Source: a virus. From it: 30,035 bases of DNA. A program made the translations under genes and the position numbers. Every line of letters starts with the position of its first letter. The stretch's first letter is position 1. Of this stretch, positions 1-21,568 are shown piece after piece. The notes beneath the pieces were generated by a model. The model was not told where the DNA came from. It ran no database searches and worked only from the letters and a program-made list of their open reading frames with translations. The stretch covers positions 1 through 30,035 of IMG/VR virus record IMGVR_UViG_3300020141_000417; one strand, given 5' to 3'.

Positions 1-3000
1 AATAAACAATATTTTGTTGGTCAAACTGCGAAAAGAATAAAAGAATTTATTGCTGATCCAGAGAAAAAAAGAAAGGCATTAGAAGATTTAGCAACTTATT
101 CTGCTGATTATTTTGGTAGTTTGGAAGATTTAGAAGATAAAAAGAATAATCCTATTAGCCCTAATATAAATGAGGAACAATCAGTTGCATTAAATTATTT
201 AGAGCAAATAGATCCAGATAAGGCGGCTTTTTATAAGAAATATTTAGATGTAGATAAAAATGAATTAAGAAAATTTGAGTATAAAGGTTACCAACAGATT
301 TTCAAAGAACTAGATGAAATTGGCTTAAACTTATCTATAAACAGCGCTCAAAATGAGATAAAGCCATTAGTAGATTTAGCAAAAGAACAAGGAGGTAGGT
401 TAGATCCTGCAGATTATGAAAAATATAATAAATTACTAGAAACAATAAATTTAGCTAGTACAAGACTTGCTAAAATAGACCTATTATACCCGGGTACGGA
501 AAATCTTGATCTTGAGTCAATAGCTCAAGATTTAGTAGGCGGAAGAACTTCTATGTTAGGAGTAGCAGGCAGAAAATTAATGTATGGACTTGGTGCAACA
601 GCTAAAGGTATTGTTGATTTAGCTGCTGCTCCTTTAAGAACTAAAGAGCAAAATGACAACGCTGCTATGGAAGCTTTAGGATTTCAAAATTATATAGCTC
701 CTACAACTACCCCTACATCAAAGAATAGTCTGACTGCAAGAGGACAAACAGAATTAACACCAGAATTAGAAAGCCAAAGACAATCTATAGAAAAAGATTC
801 ATCTCTTTCTCAGGATCAGAAGGTAGATAAGATGATTGATTTGCTTAGAAGAAATCCTGATCAATACAAACTCCCGAGTAATGAAACGAGTTGGAATGTA
901 GGATTTTTCCCTATAGTTTCGTCTTTATTAAATTTTAGTGCTGATATTGCTCCATTTATAATATTAGAAACCCTTACTGCCGGTGGAGCTACTCCTACAG
1001 CTGGATATGGTTTAGTTAAATCTTTCGGTAAAATGTTTGCTAATGTAGCTGCTACATCTTATACTAATGAATTAGCTACACAATTAAAAGAAAAGAATCC
1101 TAATCCAGAGCAAGCTGCTTATGGAAATATAGTAATTAATACAATAGCTTATAAAGTAGCTGGCGCTAGTGATATGGTAAAAGCTATTAGAGGTGCATCA
1201 AAAGAATTTGGGGGGGTGGTTGAAAAAGTAATAAGCAAATTAGATGATAAAGCTATTTTAACTGCATTAGAAAAACCTAATCCAACATTAAAAAGTTTTC
1301 TTTCAGATTTTGCTAAAACAGCAGGAGTAGGCGCACAAAAAGGTTTTAAATCAGGTGCTGCTTTTGAAACAGTAATAGGAGCAAAAGAAGCTTTAGAAGG
1401 AGAAAAAGTAGACTCTGAATTTATAAAAAGACGCGTAGTTGGACTTTTAAATTTTACATTGTTTAATGTTGCTACAAAATCCATTTTAGGCGTTCCTAAG
1501 ATAGATAAGCAATCTAAAGAAGCTTTGTTTCTGGCTGCTACCAACAAAGATGAAGTATTATATCAAGCAGAAAAATCATTTGCTAATAAAGAAATATCAG
1601 AATCTGAATATAATCAAATAAAGAATAATGTAGATGCTGCTTCTAAAGTACTGGAAAGAGTACCAATGGTAAATGGTAAAGGAGAGCAGTTAAGCAGAAA
1701 AGAAGCCACTGAATTAATGTATTTGAAGATACAAGAACAATTCATTGAGGATAAGATAAAAAAAGATTTACCAAAAGAAGTTCAAGAGAAAATAACAAAA
1801 GAACTAGCTGATGTACAAGATAAAATAGATAAAGTATATAAAGGTACGTTCATAGAGGATGCAGGTAAACCATTTGCTGGGCTAGAAGATAGAGAAGCAA
1901 AAAGAAAAATAAAAATAGAAGAACCTGTTGAAAAAGAATCTGTATTAACCGAAACAAAACCTACAGAAGTAAAAGTATCAGAAGGGATAGAATCCAAAAA
2001 AGCTGATATAGAAAAAAGAAGGCAAGAAGAATTAAGTAAACTTTTTAATAATGGTGTTTTATTTACAGACGATAGTGGTAAAATCATAAGGACTCTAGCA
2101 GGAGATGAAGTTGATGCCAAATATGACGCAGAACTATCTGCTTTAGAAACCGGTAAACCAGATGTTAAACCAACTGAAATCAAAGTAACAGAAGAAGTTA
2201 AGCCAACTGAAGTTAAATTAACAGAAGAAGTTAAGACAGCTCAATTACCAATAACTAAAGAAATACCAGAAGTAACCGTAGAGGGAACAAGACGTGGATA
2301 TGAAGTTATTGAAGGTAATGAGGCTAATTCTATAGGTGATATAAGACAAGAAGCCGCTGAAAGAAGAAATAGTGGTGAAAAATTCTATATTAAAGAAACT
2401 GTTAAAGATGGTAAAAAAATATTTACACTAGTTGATACAACAGTTTATGATGAATTTGGAAGGCCGGGATTCAAATCTGCCTCAGTTGAGGTTCCTGAAA
2501 ATTCTAGGTTAAGTGCTGATGCATTGATGGGAAAATTAAAAGATGCCCTAGGTGTAACTGATAAAACTAGCCTTCAAGAATTAAATAAGATTACTTCTAA
2601 GATGAAAGAATCGGAAGTAGATGTTGCTCCTACTGAAGTTAAAGTAACAGAAGAAGTTAAACCTACGGAAATTAAACCAACTGAAATTAAACCAACTGAA
2701 ATTAATTCTGTAGAACAATTAAGAAAACAAGAGCAGGCGGAACTTGATTCGCGAATAGCAAATGCAGAACAATATAGGGTAGATGGTAAAGTAGATAGAA
2801 CTAAGCTAACTAATGAAGCAGATAAAAAGGCATATGATGAAGTTTGGGAAAAATACGATAAGTTAATATCTCCTTTATTAGAAAAGGGGAAAAAAGATGT
2901 TAAACCTACTGAAGTAATAGAGGAAGCTCCAATTACGGCACCAGATGTTGAAATACCTGTAACAGGAGAAGTAAAACCTACTAAAACTCCAGAGGAAGTA

Positions 3001-6000
3001 GCTATATCTAAAAAGGCATTAGGTGATAATTATGGCTTTAGTAAAGATTTTGATGTTAGAGGAGGTGATATTGTAGCTACAGATGTATTAAGTTCTTTAA
3101 ACAAAAAAGCAGAAAAGAATAAAGTTGACTTACCTACACAAATAGCTAATGAAGTTGATTCAATGGTAAAAAAAGGTATTGAGCCAACGGAATTTAATAT
3201 CATAACAGCTGGTTCTCATTTATTAAATATTGACAAAAAAATAGCAGAAGCTCAATCAAGAGGTGATTTATTGGAATTTGAAAATTTAAATGAACAAAGA
3301 ACACAGGTTTTAAGTGTGCTAAGAACATTAGGTAATAAGGCAGGTAGAAACTTAGGATTATTCAACCTTGTATTCCAAGATGTTGATGCAAGCGAAATAA
3401 AAACAACTAGAAATTATCTTAAAAAGGTTCTTAAAGTAGATGAAGTTCCTGAAACAATTGCTGATTTAAATAAGAGCGACTTAACAGCGGAACAAAAGAA
3501 AATAGTAAAACCTTATGTTGAAAAAATTGAAAAAGTAAAAGCTCAATTTGATGCAGTTGAGAAACAAGTAGATAAGAATTTAGTAGAAATAAATAATGAA
3601 GAAGTAAATGCTGCAATTGAAAAAGCTCGTGCAGAAGGTAAAAAGGAAGGTATTGAGGAAGGTATGAAGTCTGCATCTACCGAAGTAAAACAAAAGAAAT
3701 CAAAGAAAATTAAGGATTTGGCTGCTCAGATAAGAAGATCCGATGAATTTGATAAATTCTTACAAGGCTCTGGTCCGTTAGGTGACGTTAAGAAAGCAGG
3801 TGTTGTTGATTTAGGTAGCTATAAAGAAATAGTAGCAAATGTTTTAGAAGCTGTGGCTAAAGCTGTAGAGTTAGGAGAAAATGTTACAGAAGCCATAAAA
3901 AAAGCTTCTCAGAAATTTGCTGATGTTGATCAAGGTAAATTAATTAGTGATGTTAGAACTATAATATCTAGAGCTGCATTACCTAGTAAGAAAGAAGCAA
4001 TGGATAAAATATCTGAAATTGCTAAGGCACAAGGAGTTACTGGTATTACCAAAGAAATGTCGGATCAAGGATTAATTAAGGATGTTGTAAATTCTTACTT
4101 AGGAACAGATTTAACAAATGACAAAATATTAGAAGCTGCAACAAATGATTTAAAATCTATTTTACCAAGTATTACAAGAGAAAACGTATCTAATGCTTAT
4201 GTTGAAAGAGGTGAATTTAAAAAGGAAACAAAGGCTAAAATTCAAAATAAAATAGATGAAAATAAAGCTGATGTAAAAAGATTAGCTATTAAAGAAGCAA
4301 GATTACAAGCTTTAGAAGCAGCTGATGATTATCATTTAGAAGAAACAAAAGAAGGTAAACAAAAAGTTAAATCTGATTATGAGAAAGAGCTAGATGATAA
4401 AATAAATGCTTTATTAAAAGAAAAAAAAGACATTCAAAAAGAACAAAAGGTAAGTAAAGCTCCTAAGACAGAACAAGATAAAATAGATGAAATTAATAGA
4501 GAAATTGAATATGTAAAGCAAACAAAATCTGTTTATGAGCAAGCTATTAAAAATCCTAAAAAAGCAAGTGAAGCTTTAATTGCTGCTAGAAAAGAAAGAG
4601 ATGAAACTTATGCATCTTATGGTTTAAAACTAGAAAAAAATGCAAAATCTCCAATTTTAGTAGAAAGGGATTACCAAGAAGCTGTAAAAGAAATAGAAAA
4701 TAGTAATTTGTCTAATTCTGAAAAGAATAGCAAAATAGAAGAATTAACAGCTCAGAGAGATTTAGATTTACAAGGAACCAAACAAGGTGTTGTTAGTTTA
4801 TTGTCTGATGATATTAGTAATTATGTAAAGTCTAATTTAGAAAATGCTGACTTAAATAATAATTTAAAATCAATTTTAAGTGGTTTAGAACCTACAGGTG
4901 AAAAACTTGATGATCAAATAAATAAAGCTTATACTAAATTAACAAAATTACTTGATGATAAATCTTTAAGCAAAGAAGAAATAAAGTCTATAAATAAAAT
5001 AATAACTGATTTAGAAAATAATAATCAATTATCATCTGATCAATTATCTGCTCAAAGATTAAAAAATCAATGGGAAAATGAAATAAGAAAAGCTGAAACA
5101 GATATAGCTTCAGGTAATTTTACTAAAATACCTAATAATACTTATGATTATAGAAGAAATGATCAATTAGTTATTTTAAATAAAGCTAGAGAAAACAAGA
5201 CTGGACAGTACAATAGATTGGTAGCAGATGCAAAAGAAAAACAAAGAACAGGAGCAGAAAAAGCTCTTGATTTAAGTACTAAATTCTTGGTTAGTGGTGT
5301 ACACACTGCGTCTAAAGTACTAGAAGCAGCTACATTTAAGCCTTTCATGGATTCTATGGTTGATTTAACAGCAGGAAGAGTTGCGTCATACTTAACAGGC
5401 GCTCCATATACTAGCTTGTATTCTGTTAAAAAAGGTTATAAAACCTTTGCTGCATTTAAAAATAAAGAATCTGCACAAAAATACATACAAAAATTACAAA
5501 ATGATAGAGATGTAGCTTTGGCTAGATTGCAAGAAGCTAATGAAAGCGGTAATCAAAGTGATATTAAAAAGGCAGATAAGGAATTTAAAAAAGCAGATTT
5601 AGAGTATGCGGTTTCAACATTATATAATAGTATTGAAACAAATGTTTTAAATTCTTTCTGGCAATACATGAAACATGGAGCTACTGATTATGATGTAAAC
5701 ATTGGTAAATCTTCTAAAAAAGATATATCTGATTATAGAACCGTATTAGGTAAAACAGGATATGTATTAGATGGTTGGATTAGGATGCACGGAGCCATGA
5801 AATCTTCTTTATCAGCAAGACCAGAAATGATGAAAGTATTTTCATCTACTTTGAAGGATTTCCAAAATAAAGGCAAAGAGTTAACTCCTGAAAACATTAG
5901 TTTAGCTATGGTTTTAGCGGCTGATGCTTATGAGGCAGGTAGATTGACTAATAAAACTGCCTTATCTAAAATGATTTCAAGAGGTAAAGGTAGTGAGAAA

Positions 6001-8203: not shown

Positions 8204-11200
8204 GTGGCAATACAGAATTTAATCAGCGGTGACTTAAAACTAAGAGATGAGAATGGTATATTAGTTGCAGTAAATGGTATTGTCGCTGCTGATACTTCGG
8301 GTACAATTGGTACATCAGGCAGTAGTGGTACTAGTGGTAGCAGTGGTAGTTCTTCTACTTCTGGTACTAGTGGTACATCAGCAACAAGTGGTTCTGGTGG
8401 TACTTCGGGTACTAGTGGTACTTCGGGTACTTCGGCCACAGCAGGAACAAGTGGATCTTCAGGTAGTTCGTCTACCTCTGGCACTTCTGGTAGCTCAGGA
8501 ACAACTGGCACCAGTGGTACAACAGGTACATCTGGAAGCTCTGGTACTTCAGCAACGTCTGGTACTTCTGGTACATCTGCTACATCAGGAACTGATGGTA
8601 CGGGTGGAACTAGTGGAACTTCTGGTACGTCAGCAACAAGCGGTACTTCTGGTACAACAGGAACTAGTGGCAGCTCTGGGACAAGCGGAAGCAGTGGCAC
8701 TTCGGGTACAACAGGTACTTCGGGTACTTCTGCTACTTCAGGTTCTAGTGGCACTTCTGGTACTGATGGCACAGGTGGAACTTCTGGAACAAGTGGCACT
8801 ACGGGTACTTCTGGTACCGATGGTACGGGCGGTACAAGTGGAACAAGTGGTACTGATGGCTCAGGTGGCACAAGCGGAACTTCTGGTACTTCGGGTACAG
8901 ATGGAACCTCTGGCACAAGTGGAACGTCAGGCACTTCTGGTACAACCGGAACTTCTGGTACGTCAGCTACTTCTGGAACTAGTGGGACTTCTGGTACGGA
9001 TGGTACTGGTGGTACATCTGGTACAAGCGGCACTTCTGGTACTTCGGCAACTTCAGGAACTTCTGGTACATCTGGAAGCTCAGGAACTACAGGTACTAGT
9101 GGTACAACTGGCACAAGTGGATCTTCTGGAACATCAGGAACCACAGGTACATCTGGTACTTCGGGTGTGAATGGTGTGTCTGGAGGTCTTATATATTATC
9201 TAAATCAATCGTTAAATACTAGCAGTGCATTTGGCACTCCTACATATAAGCAGTGGTCTGGCGTTCCTACAGGTGGACCTCAGCAAACAGTAACAACAAG
9301 TATACCGGGAAGCACAAGGACTTTATTTGCAACATTTGCTACAGATTCTAATGTGCCAAATGTAACGAATTTGCCTTCTGGTCTTTGGGCATGGATATTA
9401 CATTTTTCAATGAACGTAAATGATACCTTGAAGGTAGATGTGGAGTTCTACAAATGTAATTCTACAGGTGGAAGCCCAGTGTTTCTTGGAGTTACTAATA
9501 TTGATACTGAATCAATGACAGGTGGAGTGGTAAGAGAGTTCTTTATGGACTTATTCCTTCCTCAAACTCCAATGTTAGCTACAGATAGACTTTATTGTCA
9601 AATTTATGTTGAGCATGCTGGTGTATTAAGTAGAAATGTAACTTTCTATACAGAAGGAACAAGTTATTATTCATACGCACAAACTACATTCACCCCTCCT
9701 AGTGGTACATCTGGAACATCAGGTACATCAGGTGTTGGTGGAACTAGTGGTACAAGTGGAACAACTGGTACTTCTGGAACTAGTGGTGTAAGTGGAAGTA
9801 GTGGAACAGATGGCACTTCTGGTACAAGTGGTACTAGCGGAACTTCTGCAACAAGCGGTACATCTGGTACAAGTGCAACTGATGGTACTGGCGGTACAAG
9901 TGGTACAAGTGGTTCTACTGGAACTTCGGGGACGTCTGGCACAACTGGTACAAGTGGATCTAGTGGGACTTCGGGTTCTAGTGGATTTGATGGAAGCAAT
10001 GGAACTTCTGGAACGTCAGGTTCTAGCGGTGTGAGTGGTTCAAGTGGAACTAGTGGTTCAAGTGGTGTTTCTGGTTCTAGCGGAACTTCAGGAACATCTG
10101 GTACAAATGGCTCAGGTGGTACTTCTGGTACTTCAGGTTCAACTGGAACGAGTGGTACTTCTGGAACTACTGGTACGTCAGGTTCAAGTGGAACGTCTGG
10201 AACTAGTGCAACAAGTGGAACTACCGGTACTTCTGGTACTTCTGCGACAAGTGGAACTAGTGGAACGACAGGAACATCTGGAACCGCTGGTTCAAGTGGA
10301 ACTTCGGGAACTGCCGGTTCAAGTGGTTCTTCTGGTATAAATGTTGGTTCTAGTGCTGTTATTATATTAGGAGCAGGTACATTATCATCTGTTAGATGTG
10401 GGGTAAGTAACACTGCATCAGGAGCATTTAGTGCTGCATTAGGTGGTACAGGAAATACTGCTTCAGGACATACTTCAGTAATAGGAGGAGGAGGTTCTAA
10501 CCAAGCTACTTCTTGTTTTTCAACAGTGGCAGGAGGTAGAGAAAACGTTGCTTCAACAAACTTTTATGGTTCTATAATAGGTGGTTATGGTAATACCTCA
10601 TCAGGTTATGGTTCAACAATTGGAGGTGGTTTCTTTAATACAGCATCAGGAGCAGCATCAACAATATCAGGAGGAAGAGCAAACATTTCATCAGGGGCTT
10701 GTAGCTTTGTAGGTGCAGGATGTGCTAATACAGCATCAAATATATACTCTGTAGTTGTAGGTGGTGAATTAAATCAGGCTACAGGAGGAAGAGCATTTGT
10801 AGGCGGAGGTCTTTTTAACTGTGCAATAGAAAGTCATAGCAGTGTAGTTGGTGGACAATATGTAAAAGCTACAGGGGTATTTTCTTTTGCAGGAGGTGGA
10901 TGTGTAAACACAGCTTCAGGGGCTTGTTCTACAATAGGTGGTGGTGGAAGTAACTGTGCAAATGGTACTTGGTCTACTGTAGCAGGAGGTGTTAGTAACT
11001 GTGCTTGTGGTGATAGGTCAGCTATAGTAGGAGGTAATGGAAATTTAGCTTCCGCTTATATATCTTTTGTAGGCGGAGGTCTTTCAAATACTGCATCAGG
11101 CTATCAAGGCACAATAGTAGCAGGAGTAAGTAATACTGCATCAGGTGCAAGAGCTTTCGTAGGTGGTGGTAATACAAATACTGCGTCAGGAGCTTGTTCA

Positions 11201-14116
11201 GCAGTGGTGGGTGGTCAAAGCAATATTTCAGCAGGTGCTTTTAGTTTTGTAGGAGGGGGATGTGGAAACTGTGGAAATAATTCATATTCTACAAGCATTG
11301 GAGGTCAAGCAAACGTGGCTGTTGCAAATTTTGCTACAACATTAGGAGGATATAATAACTCAGCAAGTGGATATAATTCAACTGTTGGAGGTAGAAGTAA
11401 TACATCAAGTGGAAACTATTCAGGAATATTTTCAGGCAAACAGAACTCATCATCTGCTCTTTATTCAGCAGTATTAGGTGGACGTTTAAACGTAGCATCA
11501 GGAAATTGTGCAACTTTAGGCGGTGGTCAGCAAAACACTGCTTCAGGAGGGTTTTCTTTTGTTGGGGGAGGTCAATCTAACTCAGCTTCAGCTGAAAGAA
11601 GTACAATTAGTGGTGGATGTTTAAACACTGCATCTTGTGTTCATGCTACTGTTAGTGGTGGTAGAGCAAACACAGCTTCAGGTGCATACTCTTTTATTGG
11701 AGGTGGGTTAGCTAATGAAGCAGCAGCAAATGGTGGTTCAACAGTTAGTGGTGGTTATTTTAACCAAGCGTTAGGATTGGGAGCAGGAATTAGTAGCGGA
11801 TGTAAAAACTACGCAAATGCTTTTGTTGGTTTCATTGGTGGTGGTAACTGCAATAACGTATATAATGCAACATCAGGTTGTTTAGCTTATGGTGCAGTGG
11901 TAGTTGGTGGTGTTGGTAATAATACTACAGGTGGTGCTTGGTGCTTAAGTACTTGTTCTTTCACCTCAGCACCAACATTTTGTAACGCAGGTCAATACTC
12001 TTTCATAGGAGGAGGATTTCAGAATAGAGCAACAGGATTAATTTCTGTTGTTTCAGGGGGACAGAATAATATAGCATCTAATACAAGGACAACAGTAGGC
12101 GGTGGTATTAATAATACAGCATCAGAATTTGCTGCCACTATATCAGGAGGACAATCTAATACAGCATCTAATAACTACACAGTTATATCAGGAGGTCTTT
12201 CAAATGCAGCTACAGGGTTCACATCAACCGTTGGTGGTGGAAGAACTAATACAGCTTCTTCAGATGATGCTACAGTAGGTGGTGGATTAGGAAACACTGC
12301 TTCAGCATATAGAGCTACTGTTTCGGGTGGTAGAAGTAATACAGCAACAGCAGTTCACGCTACAGTGGGTGGGGGATATTTAAACTGCGCTCAGGCTTGC
12401 AATACTTTTGTAGGTGGAGGTATTAGCAATAGTGCGTCAGGATTAAATTCCACAATTAGTGGTGGTTGTGCAAATCAAAATACAGGTTCATGGGGATTTA
12501 TTGGCGCAGGAGCTTGTAACAGAATTTGCAATGCAGGTGGAACTTTCTATGCAACTTTAAGTGGTGGATATTGTAATACTGTAGTAGATTATGGTTCAAC
12601 CGTAAGTGGTGGTTTATATAATGATGCAGTAAGTCAATATTCTACAATTGGTGGTGGTTATGATAACTGTACTACAGGATATATGGCAACAGTATCAGGG
12701 GGCAGAATAAACCTTGCAAGTGGATGTTATGCAGCTGTAGGTGGGGGTTGTGCAAATACTGCTTCAGGATATGGCTCATCTGTTGGAGGTGGTCTTTCTA
12801 ATGTTTCTCCAAGTTCATATTCCACAGTTTCAGGAGGTTTAAATAATAGAGCTTGTCGTATTTATGCCACAATAGGAGGTGGAGGTAATAACTTAGTTGC
12901 TGTTGGTGATTATGGAACTATAGGTGGGGGACTTAGTAACTGTATATGCGGAACAGGTGGAAACGGAGGTATACATTCTGTAATTAGTGGAGGCTCAGGT
13001 AACTTAATAAATGGTGCTTTTGGTATTGCAATTGGTGGTGGTACATCTAATACAGCTTCAGGATATTATTCTACTATAACAGGGGGTAGAAGTAATAATG
13101 CTGCCGCAACATCCTCAGCAATTGGAGGAGGTAAAAACAATACATCTTCAGGTGGGTACTCTTCTATAGGAGGTGGTGCAGGAAATGGGAGTTCAGGTGG
13201 TTATAGTACAGTGGCAGGTGGAGAACAAAACATTGCAAGTGGATGTCGTTCTGCTATTGGTGGTGGTTCAGGTAACCAAGCAACTTGTTGTTTTTCAACT
13301 GTAGCAGGAGGTAGAGATAACGTATCCTCAACAAACTTCTATGGTTCAATAATAGGTGGATATAGTAATACATCATCAGGGTATGCAGCAACTATAGGTG
13401 GAGGATTTGGTAATATAGCTCAGGCAAACTATTCAGTAGTTGGTGGTGGTAATCAAAATACAGGTTCAGGAGAAAAAAGTTTTGTTGGAAGTGGTCAAGC
13501 TAATGTAGCTTCAGGTGCAGTAAGTGTAATTGGTGGTGGGTGTGGTAATACTGCGTCAGGAGCTTGTTCTTTCATAGGAGGTGGTAGAGGTAATACAGCA
13601 TCAGGAGCTTACACATTTATAGGCGGTGGGTATTGCAACTTAGCAAATTCATGCCTTTCAAGTGTACTTGGTGGATGCTGTAACTCAACTAATAGTGCCA
13701 TAAATGCTCATGTTATTGGTTCTTGTATACCTGCTGTAGCAAACAACTTTACATTTGTAAACAATCTATGTCAATGGGGTGGTGGTATATCTGATTGCAG
13801 AAGAAAGAATACCATTCAAGATACAGGCTTTGGTCTATCAGACATTGTTAAGCTAAGACCTGTAAGCTACTGTTGGAATGGTGATATTTCTTGCCATAAA
13901 AAGTATGGCTTCATAGCGCAGGAAGTACAGCAAGCAATGGCTTGTGTTGTAGAAACCAATCCAATAGCAAGAGTTGATGAGAACGGTTTAGAAGTAATAC
14001 TTGAACAAGGTGGTAGTCCAATCTTGCAATTTGAGAAAGATGCCATCTACGCTTCTTATGTAAACGCTTTCAAAGAGATAAATGAAAGATTATTAAAATT
14101 AGAAAATAAATCATAA
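8204..14116 (+). CDS. Giant phage fibre: collagen-like, YadA-like beta-roll, S74 chaperone
   Basis: 1970 aa with a GTG start 11 bases after the previous stop. In order: a short N-terminal anchor (1-32); collagen-like Gly-Thr-Ser triplets (about 33-327); a Cys-containing globular beta domain (328-499); a second collagen-like stretch (501-711); a long series of 15-residue turns of the form NTASGxxSxVxGGxx (about 725-1850, roughly 70-75 turns), typical of YadA-like left-handed beta-rolls; and a C-terminal peptidase S74 domain. In the last, SDCRRKN places Ser1863 and Lys1868 five residues apart, as in the self-cleaving endosialidase chaperone, and is followed by a GFIAQEVQ block near 1906. S74 domains guide trimer folding and then cleave themselves off. 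The product should be a trimeric receptor-binding or decorating fibre. It is unusually rich in Cys in the beta-roll (about 45). The long chain of Ser/Thr makes it a plausible glycosylation target. Confidence 0.93.
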   Translation: MAIQNLISGDLKLRDENGILVAVNGIVAADTSGTIGTSGSSGTSGSSGSSSTSGTSGTSATSGSGGTSGTSGTSGTSATAGTSGSSGSSSTSGTSGSSGTTGTSGTTGTSGSSGTSATSGTSGTSATSGTDGTGGTSGTSGTSATSGTSGTTGTSGSSGTSGSSGTSGTTGTSGTSATSGSSGTSGTDGTGGTSGTSGTTGTSGTDGTGGTSGTSGTDGSGGTSGTSGTSGTDGTSGTSGTSGTSGTTGTSGTSATSGTSGTSGTDGTGGTSGTSGTSGTSATSGTSGTSGSSGTTGTSGTTGTSGSSGTSGTTGTSGTSGVNGVSGGLIYYLNQSLNTSSAFGTPTYKQWSGVPTGGPQQTVTTSIPGSTRTLFATFATDSNVPNVTNLPSGLWAWILHFSMNVNDTLKVDVEFYKCNSTGGSPVFLGVTNIDTESMTGGVVREFFMDLFLPQTPMLATDRLYCQIYVEHAGVLSRNVTFYTEGTSYYSYAQTTFTPPSGTSGTSGTSGVGGTSGTSGTTGTSGTSGVSGSSGTDGTSGTSGTSGTSATSGTSGTSATDGTGGTSGTSGSTGTSGTSGTTGTSGSSGTSGSSGFDGSNGTSGTSGSSGVSGSSGTSGSSGVSGSSGTSGTSGTNGSGGTSGTSGSTGTSGTSGTTGTSGSSGTSGTSATSGTTGTSGTSATSGTSGTTGTSGTAGSSGTSGTAGSSGSSGINVGSSAVIILGAGTLSSVRCGVSNTASGAFSAALGGTGNTASGHTSVIGGGGSNQATSCFSTVAGGRENVASTNFYGSIIGGYGNTSSGYGSTIGGGFFNTASGAASTISGGRANISSGACSFVGAGCANTASNIYSVVVGGELNQATGGRAFVGGGLFNCAIESHSSVVGGQYVKATGVFSFAGGGCVNTASGACSTIGGGGSNCANGTWSTVAGGVSNCACGDRSAIVGGNGNLASAYISFVGGGLSNTASGYQGTIVAGVSNTASGARAFVGGGNTNTASGACSAVVGGQSNISAGAFSFVGGGCGNCGNNSYSTSIGGQANVAVANFATTLGGYNNSASGYNSTVGGRSNTSSGNYSGIFSGKQNSSSALYSAVLGGRLNVASGNCATLGGGQQNTASGGFSFVGGGQSNSASAERSTISGGCLNTASCVHATVSGGRANTASGAYSFIGGGLANEAAANGGSTVSGGYFNQALGLGAGISSGCKNYANAFVGFIGGGNCNNVYNATSGCLAYGAVVVGGVGNNTTGGAWCLSTCSFTSAPTFCNAGQYSFIGGGFQNRATGLISVVSGGQNNIASNTRTTVGGGINNTASEFAATISGGQSNTASNNYTVISGGLSNAATGFTSTVGGGRTNTASSDDATVGGGLGNTASAYRATVSGGRSNTATAVHATVGGGYLNCAQACNTFVGGGISNSASGLNSTISGGCANQNTGSWGFIGAGACNRICNAGGTFYATLSGGYCNTVVDYGSTVSGGLYNDAVSQYSTIGGGYDNCTTGYMATVSGGRINLASGCYAAVGGGCANTASGYGSSVGGGLSNVSPSSYSTVSGGLNNRACRIYATIGGGGNNLVAVGDYGTIGGGLSNCICGTGGNGGIHSVISGGSGNLINGAFGIAIGGGTSNTASGYYSTITGGRSNNAAATSSAIGGGKNNTSSGGYSSIGGGAGNGSSGGYSTVAGGEQNIASGCRSAIGGGSGNQATCCFSTVAGGRDNVSSTNFYGSIIGGYSNTSSGYAATIGGGFGNIAQANYSVVGGGNQNTGSGEKSFVGSGQANVASGAVSVIGGGCGNTASGACSFIGGGRGNTASGAYTFIGGGYCNLANSCLSSVLGGCCNSTNSAINAHVIGSCIPAVANNFTFVNNLCQWGGGISDCRRKNTIQDTGFGLSDIVKLRPVSYCWNGDISCHKKYGFIAQEVQQAMACVVETNPIARVDENGLEVILEQGGSPILQFEKDAIYASYVNAFKEINERLLKLENKS
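8300..9186 (+). repeat. Collagen-like Gly-X-Y triplet repeat region 1
   Basis: About 295 residues with Gly at nearly every third position and Thr/Ser at the others (GTSGTSGSSG), broken in places by ATSG, SSTSG and DGTGG. The codons for the same tripeptide vary widely (ggtacttct, ggaacaagt, ggcacttcg), so the DNA is much less repetitive than the protein. No Cys is present. Confidence 0.95.
9701..10334 (+). repeat. Collagen-like Gly-X-Y triplet repeat region 2
   Basis: About 210 residues of the same Gly-Thr-Ser type after the globular domain, with more GSSGVSGSSG and AGSSG units than region 1. It leads directly into the beta-roll through GINVGSSAVIILGAGTLSS. Confidence 0.95.
10380..13770 (+). 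repeat. YadA-like 15-residue beta-roll repeats
   Basis: Units of about 45 bases encode N-T-A-S-G-x-x-S-x-V-x-G-G-x-x. A few units are longer, notably NVASTNFYGSIIGGYG and the Cys-rich part at about 11870-11990. Conserved Asn, Ser and Gly positions fit turns of a trimeric left-handed beta-roll, as in YadA heads. About 45 Cys are spread through the region. Confidence 0.9.
10496..10639 (+). repeat. Beta-roll block duplicated at 13271-13414
   Basis: Residues 765-812 (SNQATSCFSTVAGGRENV...) match residues 1690-1737 (GNQATCCFSTVAGGRDNV...) at 40 of 48 positions by eye, including the one-residue longer turn STNFYGSIIGGY. The two copies use different synonymous codons, so the duplication is not recent. 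Confidence 0.8.
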
Positions 14117-14502: not shown

Positions 14503-14518
14503 ATACATACTACTTTTG
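14491..14518 (+). promoter_or_regulatory. Promoter of the GT9/sulfation operon
   Basis: TTAATTTAAT (14491-14500), 10 bases, then TACTTTTG (14511-14518), an exact TAnnTTTG box ending 16 bases before the ATG at 14534. The same arrangement occurs at 21596-21623 with identical spacing, at 26240-26266 with a 9-base gap, and on the minus strand near 21587-21606. Confidence 0.65.
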
Positions 14519-14533
14519 AGTAAAATCAAGAGT

Positions 14534-15409
14534 ATGAATGTAATATTTCAAATAAACGGTGGTATTGGGAAGTGTATTTTAGCCACTTCGGTATGCAAAC
14601 AAATCAATAAGCAGTACCCTGATTCACAACTAATCGTAATCAGTGGTTACCCAGAAGTGTTTCTAAATAATCCTTACGTCCATAGGTCTTTTGCTTTTGG
14701 GCAGGCTAGTTATTTCTACCAAGACTTCATTGAAGGCAAGGATTTCAAGTTCTTCGGACATGATCCATATTTAGAAGCAGGACACTTAAAACAAACAGAG
14801 CATCTATCTCATACATGGTGCAAGATGTTTGGCTTAGATGTACCAGAAAGCACCAATCCAGAATTATTTTTAACAGATAGAGAAATACAATTCTTTAGCA
14901 AAAAGTTTGTTTCTGACAGATCTATTTTGCTATTGCAGACCAATGGTGGCGCTGCTCAACAAGAATTAAAGTATTCATGGGCAAGAGATATTCCTTTCCA
15001 TGTAGTTAATAGAGTTATCCAAGAGTTTGCAAACGAATACAATATCGTGCATATTCGCAGAGATGACCAACCAGCATTTGAAGGAACCATCCATGTAAGT
15101 GATAACTTCAGAGCATTGGCAGTATTAATTGAGCTTAGTTCAAAAAGATTATTAATGGATAGCTTTGCTCAGCATGCCGCAGCTGCTATGGGTAAAAAAT
15201 CAACAGTTTGCTGGGTAGCCAATACTCCGGTAGTTTTTGGTTATGATGTTCATGATAATATTTTAGCGAATCCATTTACAAAGAAGCCAGAGCTTCGTCA
15301 TTCATTCTTACAGAAGTTTGATATTTCAGGTAACTTATTAGAGTTTCCATACGCAAACGAAGAAGAAATATTTGATGTAGAAAAAATAATTGAATCACTA
15401 AAATCATAA
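14534..15409 (+). CDS. GT9-like (heptosyltransferase-type) glycosyltransferase
   Basis: 291 aa. I chose ATG 14534 because the upstream in-frame TTG at 14516 lies inside the promoter box. The N-terminus MNVIFQINGGIGKCILATSV fits the GT9 (ADP-heptose:LPS heptosyltransferase) opening that normally reads G-x-I-G-D. Near residue 209 there is LLMDSFAQHAAAAMGKK, the counterpart of the GT9 donor site (DSxxxHxAAAxGKP). Such enzymes transfer a sugar from a nucleotide donor in the cytoplasm. The usual catalytic Asp of the GD pair is Lys13 here, so donor, acceptor or mechanism may differ. It is the first gene of an operon with a sulfotransferase one base downstream, so it likely builds a glycan that is then sulfated. 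Fold call fairly sure; substrate unknown. Confidence 0.7.
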   Translation: MNVIFQINGGIGKCILATSVCKQINKQYPDSQLIVISGYPEVFLNNPYVHRSFAFGQASYFYQDFIEGKDFKFFGHDPYLEAGHLKQTEHLSHTWCKMFGLDVPESTNPELFLTDREIQFFSKKFVSDRSILLLQTNGGAAQQELKYSWARDIPFHVVNRVIQEFANEYNIVHIRRDDQPAFEGTIHVSDNFRALAVLIELSSKRLLMDSFAQHAAAAMGKKSTVCWVANTPVVFGYDVHDNILANPFTKKPELRHSFLQKFDISGNLLEFPYANEEEIFDVEKIIESLKS

Positions 15410-15410
15410 A

Positions 15411-16229
15411 ATGGATAATATATTTTATCAAAGCTCACTTCCAAGAAGTGGCAGTACACTTTTACAAAATATACTAGCGCAGAATCCAGATGTTTACGCG
15501 ACACCAACGTCAGGGGTATTAGAATTAGTATTTGCTGCAAGAGGTAATTACACAGACTCTCCTGAGTTTCAGGCACAAGATCCAGAGGTAATGAAAGCAG
15601 CATTTAGAGCCTTTTGTAAAAATGGTATGGATGCTTATTACAATGCTATCACAGATAAAAAGTATGTAGTAGATAAGAGTAGAGGTTGGGGCATACACTA
15701 TGACTTCTTAAATTTCATTCAGCCTAATCCAAAGATTATTTGCATGGTTAGAGATTTAAGAGATGTGTTTGCATCAATGGAAAACAATTACAGAAAGAAT
15801 CCAGACAAGGCAAATGCTATTCTTAACTGGGCGCAAATGCAAGGAACAACAGTTCCAAAGCGTGTAGATATATGGGCGCAGTCACAACCAGTTGGTTTGG
15901 CTATTGAAAGGTTGCAAGAGATATTTAGATTGGGGATAGATTCCAAAATGCTATTTGTAAAGTTTGAAGATTTATGTCTTTACCCTGATACAGAGATGCA
16001 AAGAATATATCAGTACCTAGAAATACCATACTACCAACATGACTGGGATAACATAGAGCAAGTAACCAAAGAAGATGATGAAGTGTATGGAAGCTTTGGT
16101 GACCATGCCATTCGTAAGAAGTTAGAACCAGTTCCATCAAGAGCAAAGCAATTGCTGGGCAAAGATGTTACAGGTTGGATATGGGATAATTATCAATGGT
16201 TCTTTCAACAATTTAGATATTCAAAATGA
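15411..16229 (+). CDS. PAPS-dependent sulfotransferase
   Basis: 272 aa; ATG one base after the previous stop. The 5'-phosphosulfate loop is LPRSGSTLL at residues 10-18, and the 3'-phosphate site is RDLRDVFASMENNYR at 114-128, with Arg114 and Ser122 as expected ligands. Length and order fit the Sulfotransfer_1/3 families, which move sulfate from PAPS to a hydroxyl of a sugar, protein or small molecule. No signal peptide, so it acts in the cytoplasm. Its stop overlaps the start of an APS kinase (ATGA), the enzyme that makes its donor. The acceptor is unknown; the neighbouring glycosyltransferases suggest a glycan. Confidence 0.87.
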   Translation: MDNIFYQSSLPRSGSTLLQNILAQNPDVYATPTSGVLELVFAARGNYTDSPEFQAQDPEVMKAAFRAFCKNGMDAYYNAITDKKYVVDKSRGWGIHYDFLNFIQPNPKIICMVRDLRDVFASMENNYRKNPDKANAILNWAQMQGTTVPKRVDIWAQSQPVGLAIERLQEIFRLGIDSKMLFVKFEDLCLYPDTEMQRIYQYLEIPYYQHDWDNIEQVTKEDDEVYGSFGDHAIRKKLEPVPSRAKQLLGKDVTGWIWDNYQWFFQQFRYSK

Positions 16230-16660
16230 TTATAGTATTATTTGGCCAGCCACATTCTGGCAAGACAACATTAGCAAAAGAAATTTATGAAAATCGTATG
16301 TTTATTGATTTCCATATTGATGGGGACGATTTAAGAGAAGTGTTTAATAATAAAGATTACAGTAGAGAAGGTAGGATTAAAAATTTAAATAAAGCTAGTG
16401 ATATATCTGCATATTTAAATAATCAAAGTTATGATGTTATATTGTCTTTAGTATATCCATATAAAGAAGCAAGAGATTATCTTAATAGCTTGGTATCAGA
16501 TGTTAAGTGGATTTACCTTACTTACACAGAACCAAGAGGTAGAGAAAGCTTCCATGTTGCTGATTTTGAAGAGCCGGAATTGGAAAATTTCATGCAAATT
16601 AATACCGACAATCAATCAATTGAAGAAACAATAAATAAAATAATTCAATATGTGGGATAA
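16226..16660 (+). CDS. Adenylylsulfate (APS) kinase, short form
   Basis: 144 aa, overlapping the sulfotransferase stop by 4 bases. The P-loop is GQPHSGKTT (7-15); HIDGDDLREVF (30-40) is the CysC D-G-D substrate motif; SREGRIKN (46-53) corresponds to the DREENIRR block; LSLVYPYKEARD (73-84) to the (V/I)SPYRxxR block; and FEEPELENFMQINTD near 114-128 to the late YExPxxPDLxIxT block. It should phosphorylate APS with ATP to give PAPS, the donor for the upstream enzyme. It is shorter than usual CysC proteins (170-200 aa) and lacks their N-terminal extension. The gene symbol cysC would fit but the phage form is divergent. Confidence 0.82.
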   Translation: MIIVLFGQPHSGKTTLAKEIYENRMFIDFHIDGDDLREVFNNKDYSREGRIKNLNKASDISAYLNNQSYDVILSLVYPYKEARDYLNSLVSDVKWIYLTYTEPRGRESFHVADFEEPELENFMQINTDNQSIEETINKIIQYVG

Positions 16661-17048
16661 AAAAGTACACGTTAAAAGCTCAATGGAGGGTAAGGATAAT
16701 CAATGGTCTTTATTTATTGGACGTTGGCAACCTTTACATAATGGTCATAAAGAAATGTTTCAGCAAGTACTTGATAATGGAGGAAGGGTATGCATTGCTG
16801 TTAGAGATGGAGAGGTTAATGAAAAAAATCCATTTACTACAAAAGAAGTATTTACAAACATATCAAAAGAGTATTGGGATAATGAAAACGTACAAGTTAT
16901 TATTGTTCCTGATATTTCTTCCGTCAACTTTGGTAGAGGAGTTGGCTATGATATTATAGAGCATATACCACCCACAGAAGTAGCACAAATTTCAGCAACC
17001 AAGATAAGAGAAGAAATGTATGGTACAAGCCAAAAGACACATAGCTAA
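16650..17048 (+). CDS. Small HxGH nucleotidyltransferase (cytidylyl/adenylyltransferase-like)
   Basis: 132 aa from ATG 16650, which overlaps the APS kinase by 11 bases; ATG 16683 is an equally good start. FIGRWQPLHNGHKEMF (22-37) carries the HxGH motif (His30, His33) and ISATKIREE (114-122) the ISxTxxR motif of the nucleotidyltransferase superfamily. These enzymes join a nucleoside triphosphate to a phosphate or acid group and release pyrophosphate. From memory, close relatives (GRWQPFHxGHK...KNPF...ISAT) occur beside or fused to APS kinases in bacteria, so it may act in sulfate activation, perhaps in place of ATP sulfurylase; that is inference. An NMN- or CTP-type activity is the alternative. 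Confidence 0.75.
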   Translation: MWDKKVHVKSSMEGKDNQWSLFIGRWQPLHNGHKEMFQQVLDNGGRVCIAVRDGEVNEKNPFTTKEVFTNISKEYWDNENVQVIIVPDISSVNFGRGVGYDIIEHIPPTEVAQISATKIREEMYGTSQKTHS

Positions 17049-17241
17049 AACAATAAGCTATAGAATATTAAGTACAACAATAGGATTCATTGCCATGTGG
17101 TACGTTACTGGTTCCGTAAAAGTTGGAGCCGCCTTTGGAGTAGCTGAACTGGTTTATAAGCCAATTCAGTACTACATCCATGAGCGTGTATGGTATAAGT
17201 GGATTAAATACGGTCTTAAAAATAACGATCAATTTTACTGA
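17020..17241 (+). CDS. DUF2061 family small membrane protein
   Basis: 73 aa, overlapping the nucleotidyltransferase by 29 bases in another frame. KRHIAKTISYRILSTTIGFI (5-24), then MWYVTGSV, an Ala/Gly-rich membrane part and the family-typical YYIHERVWYKW near 51-61 identify DUF2061. Two membrane helices are likely. Function unknown; its place at the end of a sulfotransferase, APS kinase and nucleotidyltransferase operon suggests a link with sulfate activation or use. The 3' end overlaps the convergent minus-strand gene by 26 bases. Confidence 0.8.
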   Translation: MVQAKRHIAKTISYRILSTTIGFIAMWYVTGSVKVGAAFGVAELVYKPIQYYIHERVWYKWIKYGLKNNDQFY

Positions 17242-19267
17242 TTACCATCTCTGCGGTAATTGATGTCTGGCACTCAAAGTGTTTATTGTAAGGACACCAA
17301 TTCCAGTCCCCTTTATCAAATTTTATGTCACGTTTATTCCAACATCCGTGACATACTTTATCATTTGTGATTCGTATGCAGTTGCTAAGGAACTCGTGGT
17401 CATACTCAGTAAAATTACTGATTAGTACTACTTGTTTACCTAAAGCCCATGCCAACCAGCTAAGACCGGAACTAAGCCCTACAAAGAAGGTACTATGGTA
17501 TATCCAATCCATTGTTGATTCCATTGATGTATCTGGTATCTGTGGGCAATTGTCAAATGGGTTTACTTCTTTGGAAACATTGTATACCTTATATCCTTGT
17601 TCGGTATAATGGTTAATTAGCTTCTGCCATTCCTCTCTTACCCAAAACTTGCAGCCAGTAGTTGAATTAGTCGCAATGGTGATGTATTTGCTATGTTCTG
17701 GACATTCTCTCTTGGTAAATAATTTGGGGCGAATTTCGGTATACTTTAAGCCCAAAATATTAGTAGCCGCCTTTTGTAGTGGTATTGTGTTTGGTAATTC
17801 TGGTTCTCTGCTGCTATCGTAATGCCAGCCAATCTTATACATGGCATAGCAGTTTACAGAGCTGCCGGGTTCCACTAATTCAAGTTCAGGATAGTCCAGT
17901 ATTTTATTATGAAAAGTGGACAACACAACATTGCATCTATGCTTCTTTTGGAACTCTAAAGCATACGGAACCCATGCAATCGTATCTCCCAAAGCTTTGC
18001 TTTCTATTGATATGAATACCTTTTTATTATGTAGATCCAATACGTTCTCATAGATAAGCTCACCATCTTGATAGACATAGGTTTTCCATTTGGTATAGTA
18101 TTGTCTATTGAGCCTTACCCAGCTATTGCTTTTGATTGTGTTTTGGTAATGGCATACATCATTTTCATCATAAAATCTAACCTCAAAATCACTATCGCTT
18201 TCTCCTTTGATTTCAAGGAAAGGGTGGTTAATGAAATGTTGTATAACACGAACCTTCTGTACCTGTGCTGGAAGTTCTAATATCTTTTCATAGGCTTCCT
18301 GATGTTTCAGTGCGAAGTGAATAGATTTGTTGTCCTTTGGTACAACATAAGTATTAGGGTATTTGGCTACTAATTCCAAGTCCGTATTGATGTCATATAG
18401 GAAATCATCATACATTCCGGCATACTGCGGAAGATTCCGCGCAACAATAGGTAGCCCATGTCCAATGGCCTCACGAAGCACTAATGGGTTACATTCCCAT
18501 GTAGAGTTGAACATGAATATATCTGATGCTGTCATGAAGTTGTGAATATCAGTTCTTTCACCCCATACCCATACGTTTGCTGGTAAATCCTGCATCAATG
18601 GTTCCCAATAGCTTTTGAAGTTTCCGGCTTGATTACCAACAAAGTGAAACATCATATCAGGGTACTTACGAGCTATTTCAAGTCCTTCCTTTTGATTCTT
18701 GCCCGGGGTCCATAAGCCTACATTCAGTACATGCTTTTTGTTTCTATCAAATTTAAGTTCATCTTGACATATCGTTTGGAACTTTTTAAGGTTCTGTTCT
18801 TCTATTGGATAAAGTATTGTAACATACTTTGATTCCAAGTCTGCAAATGTTTCTTCATGGTATGGAGTACAAAAAGAATATAGGTCTGGGTGAAATACTT
18901 TACTATTCGGATCAAACGAGATGTCATGACACGTTTCTACTATTCTGTACTTTCTATCTGGGTTGTATAGCTTCTTTACCATCTCCCTGTCTAATCTTTC
19001 AGACATTTCATCTATATGGATTATGTCAGGTTGGAAGTATTCTAGCACATCAAATAGGTGCATTTTATTTTCGTAAAGGGTAGTAAAATTACTACCAATC
19101 AGTTCCCTTATAGTATTCCTTTGGACCACATAATCTAATCCATGGCACTGATATTCTACTACATAGTATTGATTATCAGTATGGTTTCTCATGCTCTCTA
19201 ATCTCTTTAATACGAATTGAGGGCAGCCACCTGTACTAAGATGCGGAGTTAAAAATAATATTCTCAT
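17216..19267 (-). CDS. GT4 glycosyltransferase fused to TibC-like O-heptosyltransferase
   Basis: 683 aa. The N-terminal half is a GT-B enzyme of GT4 type: MRILFLTPHLSTGGCPQF at the start, VLNVGLWTPGKNQ near 180-191, and STWECNPLVLREAIGHGLPIV near 255-275 with the expected E-x7-E pattern. After a beta-rich linker (about 355-412) comes a TibC/BAHTCr-like half: ESKALGDTIAWVPYALEF (422-439) with probable catalytic Asp428, TTGCKFWVREEWQKL (536-550), VGLSSGLSWLAWALGK (596-611), and four Cys at 639, 642, 658 and 666 (C-x2-C-x15-C-x7-C) matching the iron-finger pattern of TibC. TibC adds heptose to Ser in repetitive autotransporter adhesins. The fusion suggests two sequential sugar transfers. The start overlaps the upstream 67-aa gene by four bases. 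The real sugar and target are unknown; the phage fibre is the most tempting candidate. Confidence 0.82.
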   Translation of the reverse strand: MRILFLTPHLSTGGCPQFVLKRLESMRNHTDNQYYVVEYQCHGLDYVVQRNTIRELIGSNFTTLYENKMHLFDVLEYFQPDIIHIDEMSERLDREMVKKLYNPDRKYRIVETCHDISFDPNSKVFHPDLYSFCTPYHEETFADLESKYVTILYPIEEQNLKKFQTICQDELKFDRNKKHVLNVGLWTPGKNQKEGLEIARKYPDMMFHFVGNQAGNFKSYWEPLMQDLPANVWVWGERTDIHNFMTASDIFMFNSTWECNPLVLREAIGHGLPIVARNLPQYAGMYDDFLYDINTDLELVAKYPNTYVVPKDNKSIHFALKHQEAYEKILELPAQVQKVRVIQHFINHPFLEIKGESDSDFEVRFYDENDVCHYQNTIKSNSWVRLNRQYYTKWKTYVYQDGELIYENVLDLHNKKVFISIESKALGDTIAWVPYALEFQKKHRCNVVLSTFHNKILDYPELELVEPGSSVNCYAMYKIGWHYDSSREPELPNTIPLQKAATNILGLKYTEIRPKLFTKRECPEHSKYITIATNSTTGCKFWVREEWQKLINHYTEQGYKVYNVSKEVNPFDNCPQIPDTSMESTMDWIYHSTFFVGLSSGLSWLAWALGKQVVLISNFTEYDHEFLSNCIRITNDKVCHGCWNKRDIKFDKGDWNWCPYNKHFECQTSITAEMVISKIDRYF

Positions 19268-19666: not shown

Positions 19667-19969
19667 TTAATATCTTTCAAAAAGGAATCTACCATTGAAT
19701 GGGTGGATTTTAACCATTCCATAATTTCTCATAATTTTTACAACATCATCAGGTTGTAATGATTGATGTAAATTTTTGACTATCTCTCTGAATGATTCTA
19801 AATCATTATCTTTTTTTAAATTTTGACAATCTTCGCAAATAGGCATCAGGTTTTCAAATTCCATTGATTCAGGTTCCATTTGGTCAACTTTAACTTCTTC
19901 TATGGTAATTCTTTGGCCACAATAAGCGCAAAGACCATCATATTTTTCGTATATTTTTTCTATGTTCAT
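19667..19969 (-). CDS. HNH-type protein lacking the key His, 100 aa
   Basis: The order YDGLCAYCGQ (10-19), VDQMEP (28-33), ENLMPICEDCQNLKK (39-53) matches the phage HNH endonuclease layout (CxYCG, VDHxxP, NLxPxCxxCN). Zinc-binding Cys14/17 and Cys45/48 are present and Asn40 is kept, but the VDH motif reads VDQ (Gln30), which removes the catalytic His, and the CN after the last Cys pair is shifted (CQN). The C-terminal part (LHQSLQPDDVVKIMRNYGMV, then a GRFLFERY end) also matches the family. It may be an inactive nuclease kept for DNA binding. A sequencing error is unlikely, since the frame is intact. Confidence 0.75.
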   Translation of the reverse strand: MNIEKIYEKYDGLCAYCGQRITIEEVKVDQMEPESMEFENLMPICEDCQNLKKDNDLESFREIVKNLHQSLQPDDVVKIMRNYGMVKIHPFNGRFLFERY

Positions 19970-20212: not shown

Positions 20213-21568
20213 TTATTTGTTTAGTTGGTTTATAAATTCTTTAATCTTTTCAATGTTCTTTTCTCCATGATAAAATAACAAATGCTCTTTATGTGAAGGT
20301 ACTTTAATCCATGGCCCTATTAAATTATCATGTCCAGTAAATTCTAATTCTTTATGTAGTCCATTGATGTAACAATATGGTAATCCTCCAAAAGCTTTGC
20401 GCTTATATAGTAACGCTTGTAGTACGGTTTCCTCGTGGAAGGGTGCATAGTGGTTATGGTTCTTTAAAATTTTAGGGTGGTTGCACATCCAGTGCCATTC
20501 CTCCAAGAAATCAATAGTATTTTGCCCTGCTACATAATATCCTGTTTGCCTGTACCTGTTGCGTACATACTGGTTGATGTTGAATAGGTCACAGGCTGGT
20601 GCTTCCAATGTAGTGCTTAAATCCGTCCTACTTTCAGCGCCACCTCTACCATTGACCATAAGGTATTCATATATACCCTCTGTAAAAAATGGGTAACTTG
20701 ATTCGTAATTATAGAAAGTAAAGATATTGTCAACGTTTGGGCTTGCCACAGAATCAGAGTCAATATAAGCAATCGTTTCTGCATAGTTTTCAAGTGCGTG
20801 TTTGGTTATTAAAGGTCTTTGTATAAGTAATTTGTAAATGCTCTTATTGGATCTATCAATGTATTCGGACCTTTGTTTCAGGTGCTTCACATCACAATCC
20901 CATCTAATTGTTTTGGTATCTTCTATTCCGTTAATCTTCTTATCAGAGTTGAGCATGTAAACTAATATTGGTACTTCACTGAACTTACGGATAGATTCAG
21001 CGCATACTTGGACCAAATCAAAATAAGATTCATCAGCGTACAATAGGTAGGCTTTCTCGTGCTTTTGGGTTTTGTTTACATAGTAACCATAATACTGGTT
21101 AGCGTAAAGTAGTTTAAGTTCTGGGTATCTGGTTTCCATAACTGCCGGAGTCAAGTCAGGCTGCAAATGTGTTTCATGGACGTTCCCTTCATGCTCTCCC
21201 TGTTCCATAAGGTATGGTACTGCCACCAGACATTGCTTACCGCTATTGACTATCTTTCTGATAATACTTTGCGCATCTTCCACAGACAAGTGTTCAAGCA
21301 CATCACCCATGATAATAAACTCGTAATAGTCAAAATGGAAACCAACTACGCTTTGTATGAATACATTGTTGTACTTCTTATCTAATTGATAGTTAACTAC
21401 ATAAGGTTCGTATATCTCTACGCAATCCATGTAGTAGCCATAGTTTTTTAGCATATCAGCATAGGTGCCAATACCAGCACCCACATCTAATATCTTTTTA
21501 TTTATGTCTACATTATCTACTATGTAATCCCTTACCTCTTGTTTGAAGAATTGAAAGCTGGTTGGCAT
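20213..21568 (-). CDS. Methyltransferase-glycosyltransferase (GT-A) fusion
   Basis: 451 aa. Residues 1-165 are a class I SAM methyltransferase: ILDVGAGIGTYADML (26-40) is motif I, and FIIMGDVLEHL (84-94) the post-II/III region. Residues 170-451 look like a GT-A glycosyltransferase: KAYLLYADESYFDLVQVCAE opens the fold, IAYIDSDSVASPNV (266-279) has a D-S-D metal motif at 270-272, and FHEETVLQALLYK lies further on. Such fusions can methylate and extend the same glycan. It is the first gene of the minus-strand operon that ends with the GT4-TibC fusion. Its promoter is divergent from that of the DUF6165 gene. Substrates unknown. Confidence 0.8.
   Translation of the reverse strand: MPTSFQFFKQEVRDYIVDNVDINKKILDVGAGIGTYADMLKNYGYYMDCVEIYEPYVVNYQLDKKYNNVFIQSVVGFHFDYYEFIIMGDVLEHLSVEDAQSIIRKIVNSGKQCLVAVPYLMEQGEHEGNVHETHLQPDLTPAVMETRYPELKLLYANQYYGYYVNKTQKHEKAYLLYADESYFDLVQVCAESIRKFSEVPILVYMLNSDKKINGIEDTKTIRWDCDVKHLKQRSEYIDRSNKSIYKLLIQRPLITKHALENYAETIAYIDSDSVASPNVDNIFTFYNYESSYPFFTEGIYEYLMVNGRGGAESRTDLSTTLEAPACDLFNINQYVRNRYRQTGYYVAGQNTIDFLEEWHWMCNHPKILKNHNHYAPFHEETVLQALLYKRKAFGGLPYCYINGLHKELEFTGHDNLIGPWIKVPSHKEHLLFYHGEKNIEKIKEFINQLNK

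Follow-up and report, generated by a model that had tools for sequence, protein, structure and literature searches.

We found that a phage genome fragment encodes an intact, TibC-like fusion glycosyltransferase, and that this type of enzyme, whose nearest characterised relative glycosylates bacterial adhesins, travels with Gly-Thr-Ser repeat proteins across viral and bacterial genomes, so that the phage probably sugar-coats its own tail fibre. The fragment, referred to here as the window, is a 30,035-nt stretch of viral DNA (IMG/VR record IMGVR_UViG_3300020141_000417). We consider it probable that the protein is a two-domain O-glycosyltransferase that glycosylates the phage's own collagen-like GTS/GSS fibre, with the GT4 half, and the product of a neighbouring gene, extending or capping the sugar. 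The relevant features are collected in Table 1.

Table 1. Features of the window discussed in the text, in order of position.
Feature	Position	Strand	Basis or remark
Tail fibre, 1970 aa, likely acceptor	8204..14116	+	PF01391 in 7 stretches, PF13884, PHROG tail fibre
GTS/GSS collagen-like stretch 1, aa 33-335, likely acceptor	8300..9208	+	59.7% Ser+Thr
GTS/GSS collagen-like stretch 2, aa 499-740, likely acceptor	9698..10423	+	55.4% Ser+Thr
β-roll-type repeat, aa 741-1830, spacing 14-16 residues	10424..13693	+	Not the co-occurring feature
GT-B/GT9-like protein	14516..15409	+	By sequence only, no Pfam match; recurs with sulfotransferase
Sulfotransferase	15411..16229	+	PF13469, E=2.3e-20; tracks β-roll fibre type
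P-loop kinase-like protein (APS-kinase family)	16226..16660	+	PF01583
Nucleotidyltransferase-like protein	16650..17048	+	PF01467
GT4 + TibC-type fusion glycosyltransferase (clade II, BAHT-related)	17216..19267	-	683 aa, ATG start
C-terminal TibC-type O-glycosyltransferase domain, residues 345-683	17219..18235	-	TIGR04414, TibC 4RAP
Iron finger Cys639, 642, 658, 666	17270..17353	-	TibC Cys339/342/358/370
Thr585 replacing TibC Arg286 (adenine contact)	17513..17515	-	Alignment
Catalytic base Asp428 (TibC Asp110)	17984..17986	-	Alignment
N-terminal GT4 (GT-B) domain, residues ~1-338	18254..19267	-	PF00534; GT4 structures among Foldseek matches
GT4 EX7E motif, E258-E266	18470..18496	-	Alignment A1
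Methyltransferase domain (N-terminal) + second domain, GT-A-like by sequence	20213..21568	-	Weak Pfam methyltransferase match

The fusion gene is uninterrupted, with no internal stops across its 683 codons. In the N-terminal half, PF00534 (Glycos_transf_1) matches residues 170-283 with E=2.3e-10, and the EX7E glutamates are well kept in alignment A1: of the 42 rows that cover these positions, 41 have E258 and 39 have E266. The C-terminal half is recognised over residues 359-681 by the NCBIfam model for autotransporter strand-loop-strand O-heptosyltransferases, TIGR04414, at 226.7 bits, above the curated cut-off of 200 bits; the same model was matched by 14/14 members of A2 (E≤1e-10), and phmmer aligned the fusion with TibC (4rap) over residues 381-677 at E=1.3e-40. 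When an AlphaFold model of the fusion (pLDDT 90.2, pTM 0.63) was searched with Foldseek, TibC 4RAP was the best PDB match (E=3.9e-27, rmsd ~3 Å), with GT4 enzymes ranking next. Superposition on TibC, a check proposed in an earlier note on this DNA, gave a TM-score of 0.80-0.81 normalised by TibC, and the predicted C-terminal half adopts the TibC fold, a β-barrel plus GT-B. The GT4 and TibC-like fusion claimed in that note is thus borne out for both halves, and it is nearly certain that the phage enzyme is intact and TibC-like.

The C-terminal half aligns with TibC across Asp428 and the iron finger, a point on which the earlier note had made its reading depend, and the sequence features that it listed, ALGDTIAWVPY, GLSSGLSWLAWALG and Cys 639, 642, 658 and 666, are all present. 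In TibC the catalytic base is Asp110 and the iron ligands are C339, C342, C358 and C370 (PMC4358343). All 91 viral and all 86 bacterial domains have an aspartate at the Asp110 position, and the four iron-finger cysteines are all present in 87/87 viral domains with sequence there. The last cysteine spacing of the predicted finger is x7 in the window enzyme, compared with x11 in TibC. Thr226, Lys230 and Trp305 of TibC are matched by Thr536, Lys540 and Trp604; the Lys230 and Trp305 equivalents, like Asp110 and the iron-finger cysteines, are kept throughout the complete viral domains.

Two features of TibC have been lost in the phage clade. Arg286, which contacts adenine in TibC and whose alanine mutant is inactive or nearly so (PMC4358343), is Arg in 60/64 classical bacterial domains and Thr in 71/86 viral domains. 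The β-hairpin thumb, required for the TibC dodecamer (PMC4358343), corresponds to a segment of 20 residues in the window enzyme, compared with 30 in TibC and in 59/64 classical enzymes, and no thumb hairpin was found in the AlphaFold model. With Thr585 in place of Arg286 and the thumb missing, neither a heptose donor nor a TibC-like dodecamer can be assumed; the label O-heptosyltransferase in the earlier note therefore holds for a TibC-type O-glycosyltransferase, and does not extend to heptose as the sugar. Residue P300 of TibC corresponds to Ser599, and AAH likewise has Ser there, a residue that would be compatible with either heptose form; we rejected a donor assignment on this basis as it is undercut by R286T at the nucleotide. 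A phage-encoded heptose supply was likewise set aside, with gmhA over its cut-off in 1/50 enzyme records and rfaE domain II in 0/50. The single gmhA, a heptose-synthesis gene, belongs to a 636-kb phage (LR756504, 430182-430640) and lies ~27 kb from that phage's single-domain TibC-type gene.

No autotransporter was found among the window proteins scanned, and the partner of the enzyme is the GTS tail fibre. The earlier note described this protein as a 1970-aa β-roll fibre rich in Ser/Thr; this is borne out in part, as the length holds and one region resembles a β-roll, whereas the Ser/Thr-rich part consists of collagen-like triplets. The repeat at residues 741-1830 fits a β-roll and has 22.5% Ser+Thr, with 153 Ser in 1090 residues. 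The C-terminal end of the fibre is an S74 chaperone.

We counted viral loci, with near-copies removed, in which a Gly-X-Y ORF rich in Ser/Thr begins no more than 8 kb from the enzyme. A GTS fibre lies 3′ of the enzyme in 27 of the 38 loci with enough flank, compared with 1/22 on the 5′ side, and every 3′-side repeat ORF (44/44) is convergent with the enzyme. Across whole records, the repeat pattern occurs in 37/50 enzyme records versus 1/44 random viral records; reciprocally, the enzyme exceeds its cut-off in 15/50 repeat records versus 0/44 random ones, while 34 of the 50 repeat-bearing records, many of them fragments, have no enzyme. Random loci yielded neither (0/120 for the enzyme and 0/120 for the repeat). 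Within one phage lineage, delimited with a different, unrelated window gene, the repeat is found in 11 of 15 records with the enzyme and in 1 of 29 without it (p=1.9e-6, a value that overstates independence as the loci are kin). The 15 loci collected with the sulfotransferase as the starting point follow this trend: a GTS repeat is present wherever the enzyme occurs and the flank reaches a fibre, and none was seen where the enzyme is absent. Of 7243 triplets, 75% have Ser at the third position; by ETD-MS, TibC modifies Ser and not Thr (PMC4358343).

The earlier note had proposed that the enzyme may decorate the phage's own β-roll fibre, and had suggested a test for co-occurrence with such fibres. 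Decoration of the fibre agrees with the co-occurrence of the enzyme with Ser/Thr-rich fibres, but the partner is a collagen-like GTS/GSS repeat and not the β-roll. On the β-roll version, this region would serve as acceptor as the TibA β-helix does for TibC. TibC does recognise a β-helix (PMC4358343), and the window fibre offers a long β-roll-type region with many serines. Most enzyme-linked fibres, however, have the GTS repeat and lack a β-roll. Two loci, L002 and L032, encode TibC-type domains 91-94% identical to that of the window and adjoin GTS fibres without one. The β-roll type follows the sulfotransferase cassette instead (9/12 versus 2/147 in other phages), the three exceptions having fibre ORFs of only 274-478 aa, two of which are truncated at a contig end, and bacterial partners of the enzyme are bare GTS/GSS-repeat proteins. 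We therefore rejected the β-roll as the main reading and regard it as an unlikely acceptor; by comparison, the GTS repeat of the fibre is the likely one.

The bacterial relatives closest to the phage enzyme come from Methylobacter, other Methylococcaceae, Polaromonas and gammaproteobacterial MAGs, among others. A GTS/GSS-repeat ORF lies nearby in 16/22 of these nearest loci versus 1/57 of the others, those of autotransporter-type enzymes (p=5e-11), although the loci are kin, so that the p-value overstates independence, and some counted ORFs are distant or doubtful, such as one 5 kb away at L415. The bacterial partners are small exported proteins with (GTS/GSS)n tails, often lipoprotein-like. 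At a few loci, in Flavobacteriales, Winogradskyella and Rickettsiaceae assemblies, the GTS ORFs are long and fibre-like and may be from phage contigs. A tree of 137 domains resolved two clades (SH-aLRT 99). In the TibC clade, 0/52 bacterial rows are repeat-linked, compared with 62/84 rows of the other clade, part of whose viral rows came from the repeat-pattern scan itself. The 84-row clade contains all phage enzymes, placing the window enzyme, by sequence, in a sister clade of the autotransporter heptosyltransferases.

These distributions bear on two further explanations of the gene. GT4 and GT9 enzymes are common in LPS building, and the enzyme could alter the host surface, either LPS or a surface protein, and thereby block superinfection. 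That phage glycosyltransferases can change host serotype, as cited in PMC12619734, would fit such a role; the domain, however, falls in the protein-modifying TIGR04414 family, and in phages and bacteria alike the enzyme is linked to a specific structural repeat, which makes a host-surface target quite improbable. The linkage could also be positional and uninformative on the acceptor if glycan genes tend to accumulate at fibre regions in general, since other such genes cluster at the fibre region of the window and fibre modules recombine. Against this, the pairing recurs in bacteria beside small exported GTS/GSS proteins and is missing from the sister clade, and we consider a purely positional origin very unlikely.

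Glycosylation of the GTS fibre would involve a conserved enzyme architecture. A scan of IMG/VR for the TibC-type half gave 180 relatives; in the best 80 of these 180, the ORFs span 382-1475 aa and the TibC-type half is C-terminal in every one. The GT4 domain is present in all fusions checked, immediately before the TibC-type half in those from IMG/VR, and some viral fusions have extra N-terminal modules (methyltransferase, pyruvyl transferase or GT2). The search for the fusion in other phages that the earlier note had suggested thus found it in most viral relatives. By tblastn, GenBank phages gave four records only. An isolated phage, Microcystis phage Mel-JY01 (PP395634), encodes a 1226-aa protein, annotated as 'methyltransferase FkbM', with GT4 and TibC-type domains; just upstream, on the same strand, is an open GTS-rich frame that spans at least 1016 aa (2-3052 of locus L083). 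Over part of this frame the record places CDSs on the opposite strand, a probable misannotation. Elsewhere, three phage ORFs (L054 11454-21029, L064 11447-20800 and L029 11744-21028) have 458-919 consecutive Gly-X-Y triplets, with Ser/Thr at 82-95% of X and Y positions.

Neighbouring genes in the window may contribute to the same glycan. The 451-aa methyltransferase/GT-like protein shares 66% identity across 446 aa with the N-terminus of the L015 fusion, and in other phages its homologues make up the N-terminal part of proteins that continue into GT4-TibC. It is thus the unfused form of one such module, which suggests that the parts belong to one pathway. Between it and the fusion gene is an HNH endonuclease ORF (19667-19969), possibly a homing endonuclease. 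The cassette at 14516-17048, comprising the GT9-like, sulfotransferase, kinase-like and nucleotidyltransferase-like genes, tracks the β-roll separately from the pairing of enzyme and GTS repeat, and may modify the β-roll or the glycan. Two of its ORFs, the kinase-like and the nucleotidyltransferase-like one, each correspond to a different half of phrog_10255 and may represent a split or fused pair.

In the mechanism that we propose, the TibC-type domain would act in the infected cell, either ahead of fibre assembly or in the course of it, and place a first sugar on Ser of the Gly-(Thr/Ser)-Ser triplets of the fibre. The GT4 domain would then extend or cap this sugar, a putative but plausible step, and the methyltransferase/GT-like protein encoded alongside would probably do so too. 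The outcome would be a densely glycosylated fibre stalk, and the glycans could stabilise a near-proline-free triplet repeat, or shield it and tune attachment. Several observations count against this proposal: the TibC substrate, TibA, is a β-helix and not a collagen-like repeat; with Arg286 and the thumb lost, activity on the donor of TibC is not assured; and most of the repeat-bearing records lack the enzyme.

To our knowledge, few systems of phage virion glycosylation are known, and our literature search found no phage BAHT or fibre-glycosylating system of this kind, in agreement with the earlier note. Compared with the TibC/AAH bacterial autotransporter heptosyltransferases (BAHT; TIGR04414; PDB 4RAP, 4RB4), the phage enzyme is alike in fold (TM 0.81), catalytic Asp, iron-finger Cys, phosphate-binding Thr and Lys, and sugar-binding Trp, and its gene likewise adjoins a repetitive Ser-rich surface protein. 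It differs in its sister-clade position, GT4 fusion, Arg286 to Thr exchange and 20- rather than 30-residue thumb segment, and in having a collagen-like GTS fibre, not an autotransporter, as partner. Mycobacterium phages also bear glycans on their own proteins, namely capsid and tail tube subunits (Freeman et al. 2023, Cell Host Microbe, as cited in PMC12619734), but the available excerpt of that source mentions neither a TibC-type enzyme nor a GTS fibre. BclA of Bacillus spores is a glycosylated Gly-X-Y repeat protein whose glycans are thought to aid hydration and stability; it differs in its location on the spore surface, in that the excerpted text mentions no TibC-type enzyme, and in that BclA-type repeats are Pro- and Thr-rich whereas the phage GTS/GSS repeats are nearly Pro-free (PMC8968730, in excerpt).

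On balance, and with less assurance than for the window itself, we favour the broader view that a separate TibC-like clade, with members in both phages and free-living bacteria, is specialised for O-glycosylation of (Gly-Thr/Ser-Ser)n repeats, perhaps using a different sugar from ADP-heptose, and that the phage GT4, methyltransferase and other modules form a fibre-glycan pathway with optional parts, such as the sulfotransferase cassette, matching fibre modules. Some of the proteins that TIGR04414 labels 'autotransporter O-heptosyltransferase' would then form a clade acting on another substrate, and bacteria are predicted to have a group of glycosylated lipoprotein-like proteins that has gone unstudied. 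The enzyme can serve as a marker gene, and the repeat as a predicted acceptor sequence, in searches of any virome, and as the isolated phage Mel-JY01 carries both enzyme and repeat, the question is testable. Glycosylation is a possible reason, itself open to experiment, why many aquatic phages can have Gly-Thr-Ser triplets by the hundred and almost no proline in them and, if phage fibres are glycan-coated, it would bear on host range and adsorption.
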